The notes below the pieces were generated by a model, which saw nothing but the letters and a program-made list of their open reading frames with translations, had not been told where the DNA came from and ran no database searches. The position numbers and the translations under genes are program-made. This document shows, piece after piece, positions 1,809-11,277 of a stretch of 64,000 nt of DNA (position 1 is its first letter; each line of letters starts with the position of its first letter). The DNA comes from Synechococcus sp. CS-1332 (lineage in GTDB: Bacteria; Cyanobacteriota; Cyanobacteriia; PCC-6307; Cyanobiaceae): positions 62,001 to 126,000 of the forward strand of contig NZ_JAHLYP010000038.1 in the NCBI RefSeq assembly GCF_025127995.1, in the 5' to 3' direction.

Positions 1809-2602
1809 CTACGCCAGGTGGACATCGGGCCTGCGGCGCACGTCGAGCCGGTCGGGATCGGGGAACCGGGCCGGGTCGCGATTGGCGGCCGCGAACATCA
1901 GGTACACCAGCTGGCCCTTGCGGATCGGCCGGCCGCCGATCGTCAGATCCTCCCCCGCTTCCCGGTACATGAGCTGCACGGTTCCGTCGTAGCGGAGGAA
2001 CTCCTCGATCGCGTTGGCCATCAGGGATGGGTCGTCAAGGAGCAGCTGCAGCTGCTCGGGGTGGCGCAGCAGGCTCAACAGATCGTCGCCGGGCGACGCC
2101 CGCCGTCTGGCGAATTCCGCGCCAAAGAACGCGGTCAGCTCGTGGGTGCTCTGCAACGCCCGCTGGTACTGCTTGGCGCTCACGGCGGAGGGATCGGTGC
2201 CGAAGATCGCGGAGAAGTCGTCGGACCAGCACTTCAGCCGATCCAGAAGCTCGGCAACCAGCGCTTCAACAGTCGGCGCAGGGCGTCCACGTCCCGTGGC
2301 GTGAACGCCTTGGCGACCAGGGCACGGAGCCGATGGTGACGCTTCGGGTTGGTGATGTTCATCTGGGCCCCGATGAGCTCGAAAGGGGGCTGCAGTTCGG
2401 GGCGCACGGCGCGTTATCCCATGCCGCCGGCGCGATCGGAGCGCAGCCGGGGGTCGTGCGTCGCCGCCACCAAGTCGTCGAAGCACGTCAGCACCTAGGC
2501 CCCGAACGGTTCATGCCAGTGGACCGGTTCGGTCCGCCGCAACTCGGCGTAGGTCGGGTAAGGATCGACCAGCATCGCCGGGCTGAACAGGGCTGTCGTC
2601 AT
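1809..2602 (-). pseudogene. Cytochrome P450, degraded and truncated
   Basis: Translation from ATG 2602 gives a clear P450 N-terminus (LVDPYPTYAELRRTEPVHW). It is broken by an in-frame TAG at 2495-2497 and a TAA at 2414-2416. Between them and after them P450 sequence continues (INPKRHHRLRALVAKAFTP type, read as ITNPKRHHRLRALV). A frameshift near 2270 moves the rest into another frame, which resumes with the K-helix region (EEFLRYDGTVQL) and the FPDPDRLDVRR segment. It ends at a TAG at 1809-1811, just before the heme-binding cysteine loop, which is missing. With two stops, one frameshift and no heme ligand it cannot make an active enzyme. Base composition is host-like, unlike the island to its right. 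Confidence 0.85.
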
Positions 2603-2654
2603 GGTTGAGGACACACACGGATGACGGTATCGAGATCTCCCCGATGTTGCCTGG

Positions 2655-3071
2655 TCAACTTGGAATGACGCCGAGCTGCTGAAGCATCCCGTAGGTATCC
2701 ACCATGATCCAGTCTTCCTCAATCTTGCCGTCGGCAAGTCGGTAGATCGCCTGACCGGATACGCAGACTCGCTTGTTGGTTGGTGGAATTCCGTTGAATT
2801 CTCCTCGGTGGGTTCCTTCGGCAGACCACCTTAGGGAGACTCGGTCTGCTTCTCCGAACAGATCGTGTACCTGCATGTGAAGGTCGGGAAAAGCCGCTAC
2901 GAGCGCACCGATGTAGGCCTTGGCGGCTTCTGGTCCATTCGCAAGATTCGGAGCCGATGGATCGTGCATGGTGAAGTTGGCCGAGCAAAGCTCATCGATC
3001 ACTGCGTAATGGCGCCCATTCCATCCTTCGGATATGAGTCGTCGGACGATGTTCTTGTTTCCCTCTGGCAT
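2655..3071 (-). CDS. SnoaL-like polyketide cyclase family protein
   Basis: A 138-residue protein of the SnoaL/NTF2-like fold (ester cyclase type). Family features are the N-terminal helix with NIVRRLISEGWNG, then YAVIDELCSANFTMHDPS, AFPDLHMQVHDLFGEADRVSLRWSAEGTHRGEF and GIPPTNKRVCVSG. The C-terminal strand reads GKIEEDWIMVDTYGMLQQLG. Members act as small-molecule cyclases, isomerases or hydrolases, and the substrate cannot be told from sequence. I chose ATG 3071 because AAGGAG sits about 9 bases upstream (3081-3086); a longer start at 3101 is possible. It is the last open gene of the low-G+C minus-strand island. No attC was found after its stop, so whether it is still a complete cassette is uncertain. 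Confidence 0.8.
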   Translation of the reverse strand: MPEGNKNIVRRLISEGWNGRHYAVIDELCSANFTMHDPSAPNLANGPEAAKAYIGALVAAFPDLHMQVHDLFGEADRVSLRWSAEGTHRGEFNGIPPTNKRVCVSGQAIYRLADGKIEEDWIMVDTYGMLQQLGVIPS

Positions 3072-3171
3072 GTGGCTGTACTCCTTTAGGGCATTGGACA
3101 TGCGGTTCTCGTCTTGGCGGATGAACTGTATACTGCACAGCCGCTTGTCTGTTCGATCGACATGTTGGACA

Positions 3172-3672
3172 TCAACGGACAATGTCTAGAGTATCGAGAT
3201 TCTTCGTGAATATCACGCGGTCTTCAGCTTCCCCGTCATAGCCCACAGCAACGGGAACGCCGTCGATCTTGAAATCGGATTCAAGGAGCGAGAATCCCAT
3301 GCGACGGTGGAAGGCAATCGAGTTGCGATTGACCGGAGCGGTCACGCAATGCACTGTGCGACAGCCAAGCGAGGCAGCCCTGGCAAAGAAACGCTCATAG
3401 AGGAGGCGTCCCAACCCCTCTCCACGTCGTGCCGGATGCACACCGAGAAAATGGACATAGGCCTGGTCGGGATAGGTCTGCGAAACGAACCCGATGAGGA
3501 ACGCAACGACCTGACCATCGACTACGGCGGTGAAGCTGGTAGACCTGAAGTGGACGAAGAAGAGTTTGGGAAGCATTTCGGCCATGGGCCGACCACCCCA
3601 CCATTCATCAACGACCGAGATGATCGGTTGATAGTCGTCCGGCTCTACATGGCGGATGACAACCTCGTTCAT
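3172..3672 (-). CDS. GNAT-family N-acetyltransferase
   Basis: A 166-residue single-domain GNAT acetyltransferase, using acetyl-CoA and an unknown amine acceptor. Motif A is complete: VHFLGVHPARRGEGLG at residues 73-88, with the pyrophosphate-binding RRGEGLG at 82-88. It is followed by the motif B region NRNSIAFHRRMGFSLLES. ATG 3672 is preceded by GAGGGGGAAGCT, a strong ribosome-binding site; an upstream in-frame start at 3735 would encode attC-like DNA and is rejected. The gene probably occupies the fourth cassette from attI. GNATs are among the commonest integron cargo, but nothing here shows an antibiotic substrate. Confidence 0.85.
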   Translation of the reverse strand: MNEVVIRHVEPDDYQPIISVVDEWWGGRPMAEMLPKLFFVHFRSTSFTAVVDGQVVAFLIGFVSQTYPDQAYVHFLGVHPARRGEGLGRLLYERFFARAASLGCRTVHCVTAPVNRNSIAFHRRMGFSLLESDFKIDGVPVAVGYDGEAEDRVIFTKNLDTLDIVR

Positions 3673-3696: not shown

Positions 3697-3825
3697 GCTC
3701 GACGGTCGAGTTAAGCCGCCGGAGCAGGCGTGCATTGCTTGGCCACGTATGGAAATTGACAGAATGGGCCTGAAGCGGAAAGATATTGCAGACCATGGCC
3801 GGTCAGCTTGAGCGAGGTGTTAGGC
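3697..3825 (-). repeat. Candidate attC recombination site (degenerate)
   Basis: It follows the stop of the membrane-protein gene. On the minus strand a GCCTAAC box (3825-3819) is followed by CTCAAGCTGACCGG. About 90 bases later comes CCGGCGGCTTAACTCGA and a GTCGAGC box at 3703-3697. The CCGG and GCTT blocks of the two arms are complementary, and GGCTTAACTC resembles the inner arm of many attC sites. The distal box departs from GTTRRRY at its third base. The length of about 129 bases is within the range of long attC sites. Confidence 0.5.
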
Positions 3826-3829
3826 GTCA

Positions 3830-4153
3830 CTACGCGCCATTCGGTTCCCGCCTAAAGAACAATCGAGCGACTAAAAAGGTTCCGACGATACAGTTCGCGA
3901 CCAGCACAAGGTAGAAGAGGAGGAGGACAAGGAACCAGACAGGGTGGTCTGAGAAGTGGATAGTGCTACTAGCGGGACCAAAGTTTCTGCCCGGGGTGTT
4001 AATCTGTTCCGTCATGACGAAGCGGTAGAGGCCAAAGGCAAGCCCTGCACAAGCTGCCGTAAAGACGGGGACAAGAACAATCCTGCCTATCCACATCGCC
4101 CATTTCTTGTATCTAGGCATTGGGGCAGGACTTGTGTGTTCTATCGGATTCAT
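3830..4153 (-). CDS. Small two-helix membrane protein of unknown function
   Basis: A 107-residue protein that I do not recognise. Two hydrophobic segments are clear: about residues 20-46 (WIGRIVLVPVFTAACAGLAF and following) and about 70-98 (PVWFLVLLLFYLVLVANCIV and following). They are separated by a polar loop with TEQINTPGRNFGPASSTIHF, and the tail is basic (ARLFFRREPNGA). It starts at ATG 4153; the stop lies four bases before an attC-type GCCTAAC box. Position and composition make it the third cassette of the array. Integron arrays often carry small membrane proteins without homologues, and no function is proposed. Confidence 0.65.
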   Translation of the reverse strand: MNPIEHTSPAPMPRYKKWAMWIGRIVLVPVFTAACAGLAFGLYRFVMTEQINTPGRNFGPASSTIHFSDHPVWFLVLLLFYLVLVANCIVGTFLVARLFFRREPNGA

Positions 4154-4254: not shown

Positions 4255-4281
4255 GCCCAACAGCGGCAGCCGTTGTTAGGC
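4255..4281 (-). repeat. Short hairpin with attC-type end boxes
   Basis: On the minus strand GCCTAAC at 4281-4275, which contains the stop codon of the GNAT gene, is followed after 13 bases by GTTGGGC at 4261-4255. Both fit the integron core-site consensus. The 27 bases fold on themselves: GCCTAACA pairs with TGTTGGGC and an inner CGG pairs with CCG. It is much shorter than a normal attC, so it may be a deleted attC whose ends survive, or a terminator-like hairpin that looks similar. Confidence 0.45.
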
Positions 4282-4767
4282 AGCACCGGCGAGAGAGCGT
4301 GAAAAGATCACCTTTGAATCCCCCTCAGCATAGAAATCTGGGATGCGGCCTCGCTCTTCATATCCGCGCTTCAGGTAAAAGTTCCGGGCTCGCGCCAAAG
4401 GTGCCTGGTCGCTTGTCTCAATAACGATGACACGCGCACCCAATGCTGCCGCGTCTCGCTCGATGTTTGAAAGAATGGCTTGGCCGACACCGTCGCCATG
4501 ATAACTGGGACTTACGCCGATCCACCACACGTTCCACACCGTCTCGGCATAGGGGTCTGGCGCATAGTACGACCACCCAATGGCTGGGCCGTCGCGAGAC
4601 TCGCGACAAGCCACAACAGTATGCCCCTCGGGCAGCTCCCCAGCAGCTAGGGAATCCAGAACTCCACCCAACAGGCCTTCTGCGTCCTCGGCCGTGAATA
4701 ATCCGGTGCTCACGGCTAAGCCAAGCAATACCTCTCTCTCATGCTCTTGAATGGGGCCGATGATCAC
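4276..4767 (-). CDS. GNAT-family N-acetyltransferase
   Basis: A 163-residue GNAT protein. Motif A is WWIGVSPSYHGDGVGQAIL (about residues 81-99) with the acetyl-CoA pyrophosphate loop HGDGVG. The C-terminal part ARNFYLKRGYEERGRIPDFY is the usual motif B region. GTG 4767 is preceded by AGAGG at a suitable distance. A longer frame to ATG 4845 would start inside the neighbouring attC and is rejected. The stop codon TAA is part of a GCCTAAC core box, as is common in cassette genes. It is the second cassette from the attI-like site. The acceptor is unknown. Confidence 0.85.
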   Translation of the reverse strand: MIIGPIQEHEREVLLGLAVSTGLFTAEDAEGLLGGVLDSLAAGELPEGHTVVACRESRDGPAIGWSYYAPDPYAETVWNVWWIGVSPSYHGDGVGQAILSNIERDAAALGARVIVIETSDQAPLARARNFYLKRGYEERGRIPDFYAEGDSKVIFSRSLAGAA

Positions 4768-4793
4768 TTGATTGCCTCTGTTGTGGTCTTGCC

Positions 4794-4877
4794 GCCTAAC
4801 GTTCGCAACTACCGGAAGCAGATAATCTTTGCTGGCCCCCAGCATACTTAAAGTTCCGGTGCATTGCGGTTGTTAGG
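4794..4877 (-). repeat. attC site of the first integron cassette
   Basis: The 84 bases begin on plus with GCCTAAC (4794-4800) and end with its exact complement GTTAGGC (4871-4877). Inside, CGCAA pairs with TTGCG and CCGGAA pairs with TTCCGG, separated by short unpaired bases and a central loop of about 40 bases. This is the two-arm imperfect palindrome expected of attC. The hydrolase gene reads into it: its last residues (NNRNAPEL) and stop are encoded by the right arm. Confidence 0.8.
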
Positions 4878-5753
4878 CGCGAGGGCAAAAAAATCTAATA
4901 GTGCTTCACAGAACTTTTCTGGTGCATCTTGTTGCACCCAGTGTGATGCTCCATCAATGGCGCGGAAGATTGCACCAGGAATCTCTTGAGCTAATTGCTT
5001 ACCATCTTCTGATTTCTGCCAAGGGTCATCCATCCCCCATAAAATCATCGTCTGAGCACAGATATCTCTATGACGATCGACGAGTGCCATGGTCTGGTTG
5101 GCATTGAGCGCAGAAGCATTTCGAATCAAACTCAGCTTGCCTTCCTCACTGGCCCAAGGAGCAATGATACCTTGCCGAAACTCATGGGTAAGCTGGTTTG
5201 GATTGGAAAGCCCTGCTGCGAGACTTTCTTCGAGCGCCTTGACTAAATCTGAGATCGGACGATTCTTCCATCTTAAAGCGTGCCCAAAGTCAAGCATGTC
5301 ATCGTCGAATCGGTCGTAGCAGACCGAATTTGAAACAACAAGACGATTTACGTAATCTCGGTGTTCAATTGCCAGAATGAGAGCAACCGCGCCACCAGTG
5401 TCGTGCCCGACAACATCCACACACTCTAATTTGAGCGCTGATAGAAGGGCGGTAATCATACATGCTTGATCTTGAAAGGACCGATCGAAGCGATCGCGGC
5501 GATCAGACCATCCATGCCCTAAAAAGTCTGGAGCCAAAATCCGATATCCAGCATCTACCAATGGTGGGATAACTGCATGATAGAGATATCCCCATGTCGG
5601 GATTCCATGCATCAGTAGAATCGTGCCTCGCTGAGCTTCGCCTACATCGAGATATCTTACAAAAACAGGGATGTGGGCAACTTGACCAGCGGGCAGAAGA
5701 ATCTCTTGCTGCGCAGCTCTAAAGTTCTCCCAAATACTCCAATCACTGACCAC
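4848..5753 (-). CDS. Alpha/beta-hydrolase, haloalkane dehalogenase or epoxide hydrolase type
   Basis: A 301-residue alpha/beta-hydrolase. LLMHGIPTWGYLYH (residues 47-59) is the oxyanion HGxP segment, close to the HGNPTWSYLWR of haloalkane dehalogenases. VVGHDTGGAVAL (114-124) holds the nucleophile Asp118; an aspartate there marks the dehalogenase/epoxide-hydrolase branch rather than esterases. LWGMDDPW (238-245) supplies the acid and GASHWVQQDAPE (268-279) the histidine, His271. The halide-stabilising residue in the HGxP strand is Ile instead of Asn or His, so dehalogenation is not assured. The start is GTG 5753 with AAGGAG upstream. The C-terminal peptide is encoded by attC DNA. It is the first cassette, beside the attI-like site, where expression is normally strongest. 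Confidence 0.82.
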   Translation of the reverse strand: MVSDWSIWENFRAAQQEILLPAGQVAHIPVFVRYLDVGEAQRGTILLMHGIPTWGYLYHAVIPPLVDAGYRILAPDFLGHGWSDRRDRFDRSFQDQACMITALLSALKLECVDVVGHDTGGAVALILAIEHRDYVNRLVVSNSVCYDRFDDDMLDFGHALRWKNRPISDLVKALEESLAAGLSNPNQLTHEFRQGIIAPWASEEGKLSLIRNASALNANQTMALVDRHRDICAQTMILWGMDDPWQKSEDGKQLAQEIPGAIFRAIDGASHWVQQDAPEKFCEALLDFFALAPNNRNAPEL

Positions 5754-5775
5754 TGGTTTCTATCACTCCTTAATC

Positions 5776-5880
5776 GGTTGTCAGCCTAACTTGTTTTTAG
5801 GTGGTTTCCGTGAACACCTCTTGGCGCCCAGTCCATTCCGTGAACCACAGGACAACAGCCTGCAGCGATGGCTGACAACC
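5776..5880. repeat. 11-bp inverted repeat flanking the attI-like site
   Basis: GGTTGTCAGCC at 5776-5786 has an exact inverted copy GGCTGACAACC at 5870-5880. The left copy overlaps the cassette boundary GTTAGGC and the first bases of cassette 1. The two CCGTGAA direct repeats lie between the arms. A further palindrome, TTCACGG-AC-CCGTGAA, follows at 5929-5944 next to the stop of the fusion gene. It could be a remnant of an inverted cassette end or part of the site architecture. Confidence 0.5.
5784..5845 (-). other. attI-like integron insertion site
   Basis: On the minus strand positions 5801-5784 read CCTAAAAACAAGTTAGGC, which almost matches the end of class 1 attI1 as I remember it (CCTAAAACAAAGTTAGGC). 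It contains the paired inverted core boxes of a simple site. Upstream on the same strand are two perfect 10-bp direct repeats, GTTCACGGAA at 5845-5836 and 5815-5806, spaced 30 bases apart like the integrase-binding direct repeats of attI1. Cassette genes start immediately downstream. The similarity is from memory and was not aligned. Confidence 0.65.
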
Positions 5881-5948
5881 GCACGGGAGACGCCGTTAAA
5901 TCTTTTTTCAACAGGATCGTTGCCGTTGTTCACGGACCCGTGAATCCC

Positions 5949-8267
5949 TCACGTCTCCAGCAGCATCTTCGAGAGATTCGGCAGGCCTGCCCCCTGGTGA
6001 TACCGGTCGCGCTGGAGATCGGTGCAGTGCTCGAGCAGGATCCTCTTCACCCGGTCGGGATAGCCGATGAATTCGGTGCGCACCGAGAGGAACGCGGCCA
6101 GCAGTCCGGAGATGTGCGGCGCCGCCATGCTCGTGCCGGAGAGGGCCACATACAGTTCATCGAGGCTCTTGCCCTTGCCGCTACTCCGGCACGAAAGGAT
6201 CCGCTCCCCCGGGCCCACCACGTCGGGCTTGATGCGGCCATCGGCGGTGGGACCCCGTGAGGAGAAGTAGGAGGTGCCGTAGCGGTGCGGCTGGGTTGGA
6301 TGCACCGATCCGACGGCGATCGCCTCTTCCAGGTTGGCCGGATCCCCGATCGAGAGATCGAAGGAGCGGGTGGTGCTCAGGCCGTCCACCACGATGTCGC
6401 CGCTGCCCTCGTTGCCAGCCGCAAGCACCACCAGAACACCCTGGCGCACCAACCGCAGCAGAGAGGCGCACAGCGGTGAATCGCCGCAGCCGAAGCTGGC
6501 CGGATCGAACGACCCCCCCAGACTCAGATTCACCCCCTGGATCGTCAGGCGCCGTCCGTCCTGGTTCTGCTTCCAGATGTGATCGATCGCCTTGATGATC
6601 CAGGCGTCGTAGCCGCTGCCGTTGTCGGCCAGCACTTTGTAGCTCACGATCCGGGCCCGGGGCGCCATCGCCAGCATGTCTTGGCCGCCCTCGCCGCCAA
6701 CTGACAGCATCCCGCCGGCAATGATCCCTGCCACATGGGTGCCGTGGCCGTTGGCATCGTTGCCGCTGCCGCCCCGCACGGCCCCCCGGGCAGTGCAGTC
6801 CCAGTCGGCGGCCACCGTTCCCTTCGCTGCGAAGGCCGTGTTGTTGAAATGGGGATGGTGGCTGTCGATGCCCGTGTCCAGCACCGCCCAGGTGATCCCC
6901 TGGCCGCAGGCGTTGTAGCCCAGCTGGGCCGTCCGGGCCTGCACCGTGTGGATCGAATCGTGCATCAGCGCCCGCTTGCGGCTGTTGCCGAACAGGCGAT
7001 ACACCGCCGGGGCGTCGCTGCCGTACTGCTGTCCCAGCGCGGCCGCCAGCCGTTCCACCTCGGCCCTGGTCAGGTTCGCCGCCACATAGCGGTCCAGCTG
7101 ATCCTCCAGGGCGATCGTGTCGGCGGTGATCGGCTTTCTGAGCACGTTGCGGTGGATCCAGGTGAGCACCGCTGACCTGGCCGTCTCAAGCGAATCGCCC
7201 GGCTCAGCAGCTTCCGCTGAGCCGTCCAGCAGCTCGATCAGCACGGGCACCCTGGCGGTGGCCTCAATATCCAGCGCCTCGCTCAGGCTGCGTGTCACCG
7301 TGATCGGACTCACTGGCTGGAAGCGTGAGCGATCCAGCGCCGCCAGCACCGTCTCCTGGGTGGACCTTCGCGCCAGGTAGCCACTGGCGGAGTGGGCCTT
7401 GCTGGGCGGCCACACCATGCCCTGCAAGCGTTCATCGACGATCTTCGGCTTGCCGGCGGTGCCGTACTCGTCGGCCAGGCTCTGGTCCAGGCAGACGATG
7501 TCACCGTCCTGGGCGATGTTCACCCAGCGCTTCACACCGGCGGGGATCGGCAGCGTCTTTTTCCCGTGCCACTTCTGCAGCACGTCGGTCACCTGGGGCA
7601 GTCCCAGGGGTGAGCCGATCGTGACGTAAAGATCCACCGGTACCGCGGCGCCTAGCTCCATCAGCGCCTGGTACGTGACCATGCTCCCCTGGCTGTGGCC
7701 GATCACCACGAAGGGCCCCCCGCCGGTGCTGATCCGGTCCTTCATCGTCTGCACCATCCGCTCGCGTTTCGCCTTGTTGAACAGGAAGTCGTTCACATCT
7801 GCCATGAACGCCTCGGTGAACATTGCCGTCACCGGACTCCACAGCCCTTTGGCTTCCACCGAGCGCGCCGCGGGCCCCCCCATCGGTGCCCCCCTGTGCG
7901 CCGCCGTCTGGGCGGCCGCCTCCAGTTGCTGCCTCAGCGCGGCCACGAACGCCTCCGACTCGGTCGGTGCGTCGCTCTGCTGGATCGAGACGGCCAGCAG
8001 GTCCGCCGCTGCCCACTGCAGGGTGGCCCGGTCCTCGCCGATGGCCCGGGTGGAGACCCCCGCGGGTTGCGGGTAACGCTCCCGGTCCACCCAGTAGGCC
8101 ATGCGGGTGCGCTCCCCCTGGTTGGTGCCGAACAGGGCGTGGTCCCACTCCGAGCGCAGCACCCCCTCGGCGGGCATGTTGGAGATGCCGTGGCAGTAGA
8201 TGACCGTGCGGGCCTGCCCCCGCGGGCGGGATGTGATGGTTGCGGAAGCTTTCTTCGGGGCGGTCAT
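5949..8267 (-). CDS. Esterase-subtilisin (S8 peptidase) fusion protein
   Basis: A 772-residue two-enzyme protein with no signal peptide. Residues about 20-300 are an alpha/beta-hydrolase: VIYCHGISN, nucleophile elbow VVIGHSQGSMV with Ser192, IGSPLG, an acid near QDGDIV (254-256) and His292 in KAHSASGYL. A helical linker follows to about 430. Residues about 440-770 are a subtilase with the complete triad: Asp464 (AVLDTGIDSHHPHF), His508 (NGHGTHVAGIIAGG) and Ser713 (SGTSMAAPHISG), plus the oxyanion Asn619 (AAGNEGSG). The serine-peptidase part is confident. The esterase substrate is unknown. Lacking an export signal, it probably acts in the cytoplasm. It borders the cassette array but has host-like composition. 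Confidence 0.85.
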   Translation of the reverse strand: MTAPKKASATITSRPRGQARTVIYCHGISNMPAEGVLRSEWDHALFGTNQGERTRMAYWVDRERYPQPAGVSTRAIGEDRATLQWAAADLLAVSIQQSDAPTESEAFVAALRQQLEAAAQTAAHRGAPMGGPAARSVEAKGLWSPVTAMFTEAFMADVNDFLFNKAKRERMVQTMKDRISTGGGPFVVIGHSQGSMVTYQALMELGAAVPVDLYVTIGSPLGLPQVTDVLQKWHGKKTLPIPAGVKRWVNIAQDGDIVCLDQSLADEYGTAGKPKIVDERLQGMVWPPSKAHSASGYLARRSTQETVLAALDRSRFQPVSPITVTRSLSEALDIEATARVPVLIELLDGSAEAAEPGDSLETARSAVLTWIHRNVLRKPITADTIALEDQLDRYVAANLTRAEVERLAAALGQQYGSDAPAVYRLFGNSRKRALMHDSIHTVQARTAQLGYNACGQGITWAVLDTGIDSHHPHFNNTAFAAKGTVAADWDCTARGAVRGGSGNDANGHGTHVAGIIAGGMLSVGGEGGQDMLAMAPRARIVSYKVLADNGSGYDAWIIKAIDHIWKQNQDGRRLTIQGVNLSLGGSFDPASFGCGDSPLCASLLRLVRQGVLVVLAAGNEGSGDIVVDGLSTTRSFDLSIGDPANLEEAIAVGSVHPTQPHRYGTSYFSSRGPTADGRIKPDVVGPGERILSCRSSGKGKSLDELYVALSGTSMAAPHISGLLAAFLSVRTEFIGYPDRVKRILLEHCTDLQRDRYHQGAGLPNLSKMLLET

Positions 8268-10194: not shown

Positions 10195-11277
10195 ATGACC
10201 AGCTACAGGATCACCCTGCTTGCGGGGGACGGCATCGGTCCGGAGATCACCGCGGTGGCCCGCACCCTGCTGGAAGCGGTGAGCTGCCGCCATGGCTTCA
10301 GCCTCCAGTTCGATCCCCAGCCCGTCGGCGGCGCCGCCATCGACGCCACCGGTGAGCCCCTGCCGGCGAGCACCCTGGCAGCCTGCCGGGCCGCCGATGC
10401 GGTGCTGCTCGCCGCCATCGGTGCCCCCCGCTTCGATGCCCTGCCCCGTGAGCAGCGCCCCGAGAGCGGTCTGCTGGCCCTGCGCTCCGGCCTGGGCCTG
10501 TTCGCCAACCTGCGGCCCGTGAAGATCATCCCGGCCCTGGCCGGTGCCAGCAGCCTGCGGCCCGAGGTGATCGAAGGGGTGGATCTGCTGGTGGTGCGCG
10601 AACTCATCGGCGGCATCTACTTCGGCACCCCCAAGGGGCGCATCGAGGTGGATGGCGGCGTGCGGGCCTTCAATACGATGGTGTACACGGATCATGAGGT
10701 CGACCGCATCGCCCGGGTGGGCTTCCGGCTGGCGGCGGGCCGCCGCGGCCGGCTCTGCTCGGTCGACAAGGCCAACGTGCTCGATGTCAGCCAGCTGTGG
10801 CGCGACCGGGTGGAGGCGATCCACGCCGAGTTCCCCGCCGTCGAGCTCAGCCACATGTACGTCGACAATGCCGCCATGCAGCTGGTGCGCGAGCCACGCC
10901 AGTTCGACGTGCTGCTGACCAGCAACCTCTTCGGCGACATTCTCTCCGACGAGGCCGCCATGCTCACCGGCTCGATCGGCATGCTCCCCTCGGCCTCCCT
11001 CGGTTCCGAAGGCCCGGGCCTGTTCGAGCCGGTTCACGGCTCCGCCCCCGACATCGCCGGCCAGGACAAGGCCAACCCCATCGCCATGGTGCTCTCCGCC
11101 GCCATGCTGCTGCGGGTGGGCCTGCAGCAGGAGGCCGCCGCCGCCGACCTCGAGACCGCCGTCGACCGGGTGCTGGCCGCCGGCTACCGCACCGGTGACC
11201 TGCTGATGGGTGAGGGCTGCACCCTGGTGGGCTGCCGGGCCATGGGCGAGCAGCTGCTCGCAGCCCTGCCCGCCTGA
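10195..11277 (+). CDS. leuB: 3-isopropylmalate dehydrogenase
   Basis: Third step of leucine synthesis: oxidative decarboxylation of 3-isopropylmalate with NAD. The 360-residue protein begins [16 protein letters not shown]. It contains [11 protein letters not shown] (substrate-binding arginines), [31 protein letters not shown], and the metal-binding block [16 protein letters not shown] followed by [39 protein letters not shown] is the cofactor-binding region. Length and motifs are complete. It follows lpxD closely; phosphoribulokinase starts 81 bases downstream. Confidence 0.95.

Follow-up and report, generated by a model that had tools for sequence, protein, structure and literature searches.

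The inverted repeat at positions 4794 to 4878 of the window, the whole stretch of 64,000 nucleotides of Synechococcus sp. CS-1332 that was analysed, is quite probably the attC of the leading cassette of an array with an orphan attI at its start, one of a family of attI platforms that lie at several loci and share a cassette pool. Taken alone, it is an ordinary attC; more interesting is that its array is attached to an attI with no integrase beside it. Features that can be read from the DNA are the attC, the attI family, the lack of an adjacent intI, loci that are conserved while their cassettes differ, cassette boundaries at GTT and the conservation of the attI boxes. From these features we infer that IntI may act in trans, that the platforms may be active at present, and that they may have originated by duplication followed by loss of intI.

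An attC that overlaps the end of a hydrolase gene

The attC of the hydrolase cassette lies on the minus strand, is 85 bp long (R'' at 4878-4872, R' at 4800-4794) and has a variable terminal region of about 37 nt. An earlier note on this DNA had placed it at 4794-4877, which located the site correctly and set its right end one base short of the true end at 4878. The 7-bp ends are, as had been proposed, exact complements (GCCTAAC at 4794-4800 and GTTAGGC at 4872-4878, 7/7 pairs), and the inner arm blocks CGCAA/TTGCG and CCGGAA/TTCCGG pair within the R boxes, with unpaired bases between them that are distributed asymmetrically (1 versus 2). Both R boxes fit the consensus RYYYAAC / GTTRRRY and are complementary. 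DNA folding of 4794-4878 yielded -23.0 kcal/mol for the plus strand and -23.7 kcal/mol for the minus strand (z-scores of -4.94 and -4.43), and 0 of 200 shuffled sequences were as stable. The core boxes stand opposite each other in the folds of both strands, the arrangement on which the earlier reading depended.

Scoring with an attC covariance model, which the earlier note had proposed as a check, gave 26.4 bits (E 3e-5 in 64 kb) with a model built from 26 other attC sites of relatives and of the other contigs of the same genome, 4794-4878 being excluded. In the alignment of these 26 sites on the attC fold, the covariation score was 0.487 compared with 0.139 in shuffles, and 90.6% of the cells were paired compared with 30-44% when the alignment was slid. 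The score of 26.4 bits was obtained on the minus strand and only 13.5 bits on the plus strand, which indicates that the cassettes are read on the minus strand. The flanking genes are also both on the minus strand, which makes it the top strand of the attC and leaves the plus strand as the recombinogenic bottom one. The folded bottom strand displays the opposed R boxes, the inner arms, the unpaired spacer and the terminal loop, with one base unpaired at L' and two at L'', a net L'' excess of 1 where 2 is usual. An excess of unpaired bases on the L'' side over the L' side is the known polarity of attC sites. The structure, the covariance score and the orientation back the attC reading, as do the placement of the site between two cassette genes and the fact that other parts of the genome carry intI and attI; on these sequence features 4794-4878 is a genuine integron cassette site, for which recombination by IntI is predicted.

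A mechanical scan found no comparable element elsewhere in the 64-kb window, and an Rfam search of the window returned no matches. An exact-core pattern with a spacer of 40-70 skipped 4794-4878, the spacer of which is 71, and matched only a site on contig C57. Sites of the attC type are already known from cyanobacteria (PMC8352920).

The first cassette gene (4848-5753, minus strand) encodes a haloalkane-dehalogenase-like alpha/beta hydrolase of 301 amino acids, and its last nine codons and stop codon lie within the attC. The overlap and the position of the stop agree with the earlier note, which had counted eight residues inside the site instead of the nine found here, PNNRNAPEL. On the minus strand the gene ends GCG CCT AAC AAC CGC AAT GCA CCG GAA CTT TAA, the attC contributing in frame from CCT onward. 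Such gene-attC overlap is, as had been pointed out, common among cassettes. No close homologue of the hydrolase was detected in 291 other cyanobacterial genomes (E 1e-60), and it was not found in viral contigs. Plasmid homologues were all below 60% identity, the best listed being 30-38%, and the alignments of the best-scoring ones mostly stop at about residue 290 of 301, as would be expected if the attC furnished the tail. The hydrolase borrows an attC stretch as its C-terminal coding sequence.

The window array and the orphan attI family

All further genes of the array are likewise on the minus strand. The second cassette gene encodes a GNAT acetyltransferase (4276-4767, inferred GTG start), and the attC of its cassette is reduced to an R'' box, GCCTAAC at 4275-4281 (minus strand), which is fused with the leader belonging to the following cassette; no other part of that attC is left. 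A 27-bp match at 4255-4281 was considered as a collapsed attC and rejected, because comparison with genome G017 showed that only the R'' box is attC-derived. The third cassette gene (3830-4153) encodes a small membrane protein that is kept at the corresponding locus of G005 and G017, and is followed by a degenerate attC of 129 bp (3697-3825, minus strand; 23.4 bits, E 2.2e-4). Beyond it are another GNAT acetyltransferase gene (3172-3672) and, in the distal ancestral part of the array, a SnoaL-like gene (2655-3101), both with inferred starts. At the distal end of the array, a cytochrome P450 gene (about 1809-2602) is split into separate frames by frameshifts, and this region is found at the same locus in relatives. 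No IntI homologue is present within the 64-kb window, the nearest intI genes being on other contigs. With 4794-4878 and the degenerate 3697-3825 the array holds two attC sites and no nearby intI, as a CALIN does (at least two attC sites), and it lacks the intI adjacent to attI that defines a complete integron.

Upstream of the hydrolase lies an orphan attI of 165 bp (5784-5949, minus strand), bordered by the stop codon of the host gene, an S8 subtilase (5949-8267, minus strand) that anchors the locus in at least eight other genomes of the genus. Between the crossover core GTTAGGC (5790-5784) and the subtilase stop codon, the module contains three boxes, GGGTCCGTGAACAACGG, GTGGTTCACGGAA and GTGTTCACGGAAACC, with box 1 at about 5920-5947, box 2 at about 5830-5848 and box 3 at about 5801-5817. 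It matched a sequence profile, R1, with 84.5 bits (E 1.1e-23), and R1 found exactly five places in the CS-1332 genome (the window and contigs C39, C18, C29 and C50) with E-values no worse than about 1e-23, and no further match reached an E-value under 0.07. The C39 copy lies 18 bp past an intI fragment, and in eight relatives (G002, G003, G007, G011, G012, G017, G022 and G023) the module lies 15-21 bp past an intact intI; therefore, the module is the attI of the integron of this group, and the window attI is homologous to the site just downstream of the relatives' intact intI.

Within the genus, an R1 match was present in all 25 genomes searched, CS-1332 included. There were 103 matches at E ≤ 1e-6, 91 of them without intI within 2 kb, although most of the genomes are drafts and some apparent orphans near contig ends could adjoin an unseen intI. 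The closed 3.34-Mb genome of G022 has ten R1 matches (E ≤ 1e-3) and one intI. Across the family, 47 of 201 genomes and 14 of 59 genera had matches at E ≤ 1e-5. Fifteen genomes belonging to other families within the class gave no match.

Among 48 orphan modules that were retrieved, 36 had an attC on the same strand within 4 kb downstream. Around these 48 modules, 53 attC sites were downstream, 2 upstream and 0 on the opposite strand, figures to be read with the fact that attC seeds were taken in the attI orientation only, which favours same-strand detection. No attC was detected at the other 12 modules, three of which had almost no sequence covered. In CS-1332 itself, the six attI loci accounted for 15 of 18 attC matches; these matches did not include 4794-4878, apparently because scoring covered only 150 first-look candidates. 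Many orphan modules retain a few codons resembling the end of intI, and longer C-terminal intI remnants precede four attI copies, which suggests that the orphan modules descend from intI-attI units that lost intI.

Other sites were noted in the same genome. A strong attC (71.9 bits) at 39081-39172 of contig C34 (L222, about 3082-3173) has no recognisable attI of the R1 family nearby, and isolated attC-like sites occur at C19:1525 and C57:7520. At the orphan attI of contig C18 (L087, about 4600-5760), the cassettes resemble toxin-antitoxin pairs (HicAB-like and RelE-like), as judged by eye.

Cassette turnover, sharing and integrases

The order subtilase-attI was found in eight other genomes (G002, G003, G005, G007, G008, G011, G012 and G017), with the attI worn down in some of them, and the first cassettes at this locus differ between species. 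More generally, attI copies keep the same chromosomal spots across species and their cassettes differ. In G017 other cassettes come first and homology restarts at window position 4276, directly after a G017 attC; G005 has an extra segment where the window has the attC at 3697-3825, and in G012 homology restarts at window position 3091. These varied downstream sequences, together with the absence of the hydrolase from 291 genomes, make the hydrolase and the first GNAT gene look like the newest cassettes of the array.

Cassettes are also shared between loci. Genome G003 carries an identical 133-bp cassette without an ORF at its intI-linked attI and at one orphan attI, and CS-1332 has copies of it on contigs C47 and C29 (90%). 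The same mini-cassette, with a clear attC, was seen in first position at several attI sites, both intI-linked and orphan (L003 at about 10704-10844, L088 at about 5612-5751, L176, L180 and L169). The first cassette on contig C39 is that of an orphan attI in G022 (91.5% over 840 bp), ending AGC^GTTAGC. The shared cassette blocks start and stop exactly at the GTT crossover, so that cassettes are inserted at GTT, as is expected of an attI.

A 2,470-bp insert located exactly at the GTT of four G022 attI sites (L155, L156, L159 and L163; 99.9-100% identical) was considered as a cassette and rejected. It encodes a Y2 transposase and a tyrosine recombinase and is an IS91-family element, and it was therefore left out of the evidence for IntI activity. 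This element appears to target attI. The start of a similar element was observed at the attI of Synechococcus sp. SynAce01 (L023).

An intact intI (441 bits) with attC-bearing cassettes beside it is located on contig C47 of CS-1332. The cognate intI of the window attI type is intact in relatives and truncated in CS-1332, where contig C39 retains only a C-terminal fragment (2595-3002, L004), most of the N-terminal half being gone. A match to the flank upstream of the G022 intI suggests that C39 is the G022 intI locus with an internal deletion. Contig C39 begins with a stretch (1-320, L004) in which its first bases recur in inverted orientation, possibly an assembly artefact. Because the cognate intI is truncated, activity in this species would need the divergent IntI of C47, which adjoins a divergent attI, and the window array may now be frozen. 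The closest named IntI proteins, those of Synechococcus sp. 1G10 (90%) and BSA11S (86%), mark the host as a picocyanobacterium.

Explanations for the array and its meaning

IntI encoded elsewhere would recombine the folded attC bottom strand, here the plus strand, with the GTT of attI, resulting in cassette uptake. The platforms are probably duplicated intI-attI units in which intI was lost and attI was kept, and attI platforms at several chromosomal loci would draw on a common cassette pool. One IntI acting in trans on many attI sites would be the simplest reading.

The main competing explanation, possible although on balance unlikely, is that the array is an ordinary CALIN, a static remnant of a degraded integron in which intI was lost and the attI is a dead relic. 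The intI remnants at four loci are in line with that explanation. So are the truncated cognate intI, the degenerate attC of the window array and the loss of the GTT core in the orthologous attI of G007, G003 and G005, which, together with the deletion of another attC of the array, also count against a live array. However, identity across nine species at the subtilase locus is 85.5% in the attI boxes and 54% in the spacers, a difference not reached in any of 20,000 permutations. This conservation argues against simple decay, without separating a recombination function from a promoter function. The differing first cassettes at this locus and the identical cassettes at intI-linked and orphan attI sites in G003 also speak against a static relic.

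The remaining alternatives are much less probable. It is improbable that the module represents a transposable element or a repeat, such as an IS91-related end, carrying cassette-like DNA: the IS91-family element at four G022 attI sites demonstrates that attI-linked transposons exist, but the modules occur directly downstream of intact intI, have attC cassettes after them and lie at orthologous loci, and the window contains no transposase. Random secondary sites (attG) that took up cassettes via IntI and resemble attI only incidentally are rated lower still. Sites of the attG kind have been described (PMC12901181) and insertion off target has been proposed as one way in which CALINs arise (PMC8618304), but the 165-bp three-box module common to orphan and intI-linked attI, with E-values down to 1e-31, extends far beyond a short attG core. 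Least credible of all is that the hairpin serves the hydrolase gene as a transcription terminator or is an inverted repeat that arose there by chance; it does overlap the end of that gene, but it has long arms with unpaired bases, a large loop, no T-run and consensus R boxes, and it scores 26.4 bits in one orientation.

A typical integron has a single attI near its integrase gene; attI sites outside class 1 are poorly described, and IntegronFinder detects attI only for class 1 (PMC9024848), so that arrays at orphan attI would be called plain CALINs or missed. The system described here shares with sedentary chromosomal integrons the IntI family (TIGR02249), an attI beside intI, attC sites with R boxes, extrahelical bases and covarying arms, and GTT cassette boundaries, but in it each genome carries several attI platforms, the majority of which lack an intI. 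In Xanthomonas, CALINs are known from conserved loci, and mobilisation in trans is said to be possible for them (PMC12444791). Both there and here attC cassettes lie away from intI at chromosomal loci kept between species, whereas each array described here begins with an attI that can be recognised, is conserved and is a homologue of the intI-linked one. Copies of attI away from the usual place are also known from the Delta-attI-type gene cassettes of class 1 and class 2 integrons (PMC12901181), but in those, attI pieces replace the attC downstream of a gene within one array, and here whole attI modules start separate arrays. No reports of multiple or orphan attI, of attI at conserved CALIN loci or of picocyanobacterial integrons were found in the open-access literature.

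In conclusion, we give about even chances to a distributed integron in Cyanobiaceae-type picocyanobacteria, in which a single integrase would serve many attI platforms at conserved loci, each selected for and refilled from a shared pool, allowing cassette capture and expression at many places at once. The attI profile turns integrase-less cassette clusters of picocyanobacteria from unexplained CALINs into addressable platforms and makes the action of IntI in trans on dispersed attI directly testable. The dispersed attI sites point to a path of gene acquisition in abundant freshwater phototrophs that has drawn little attention.
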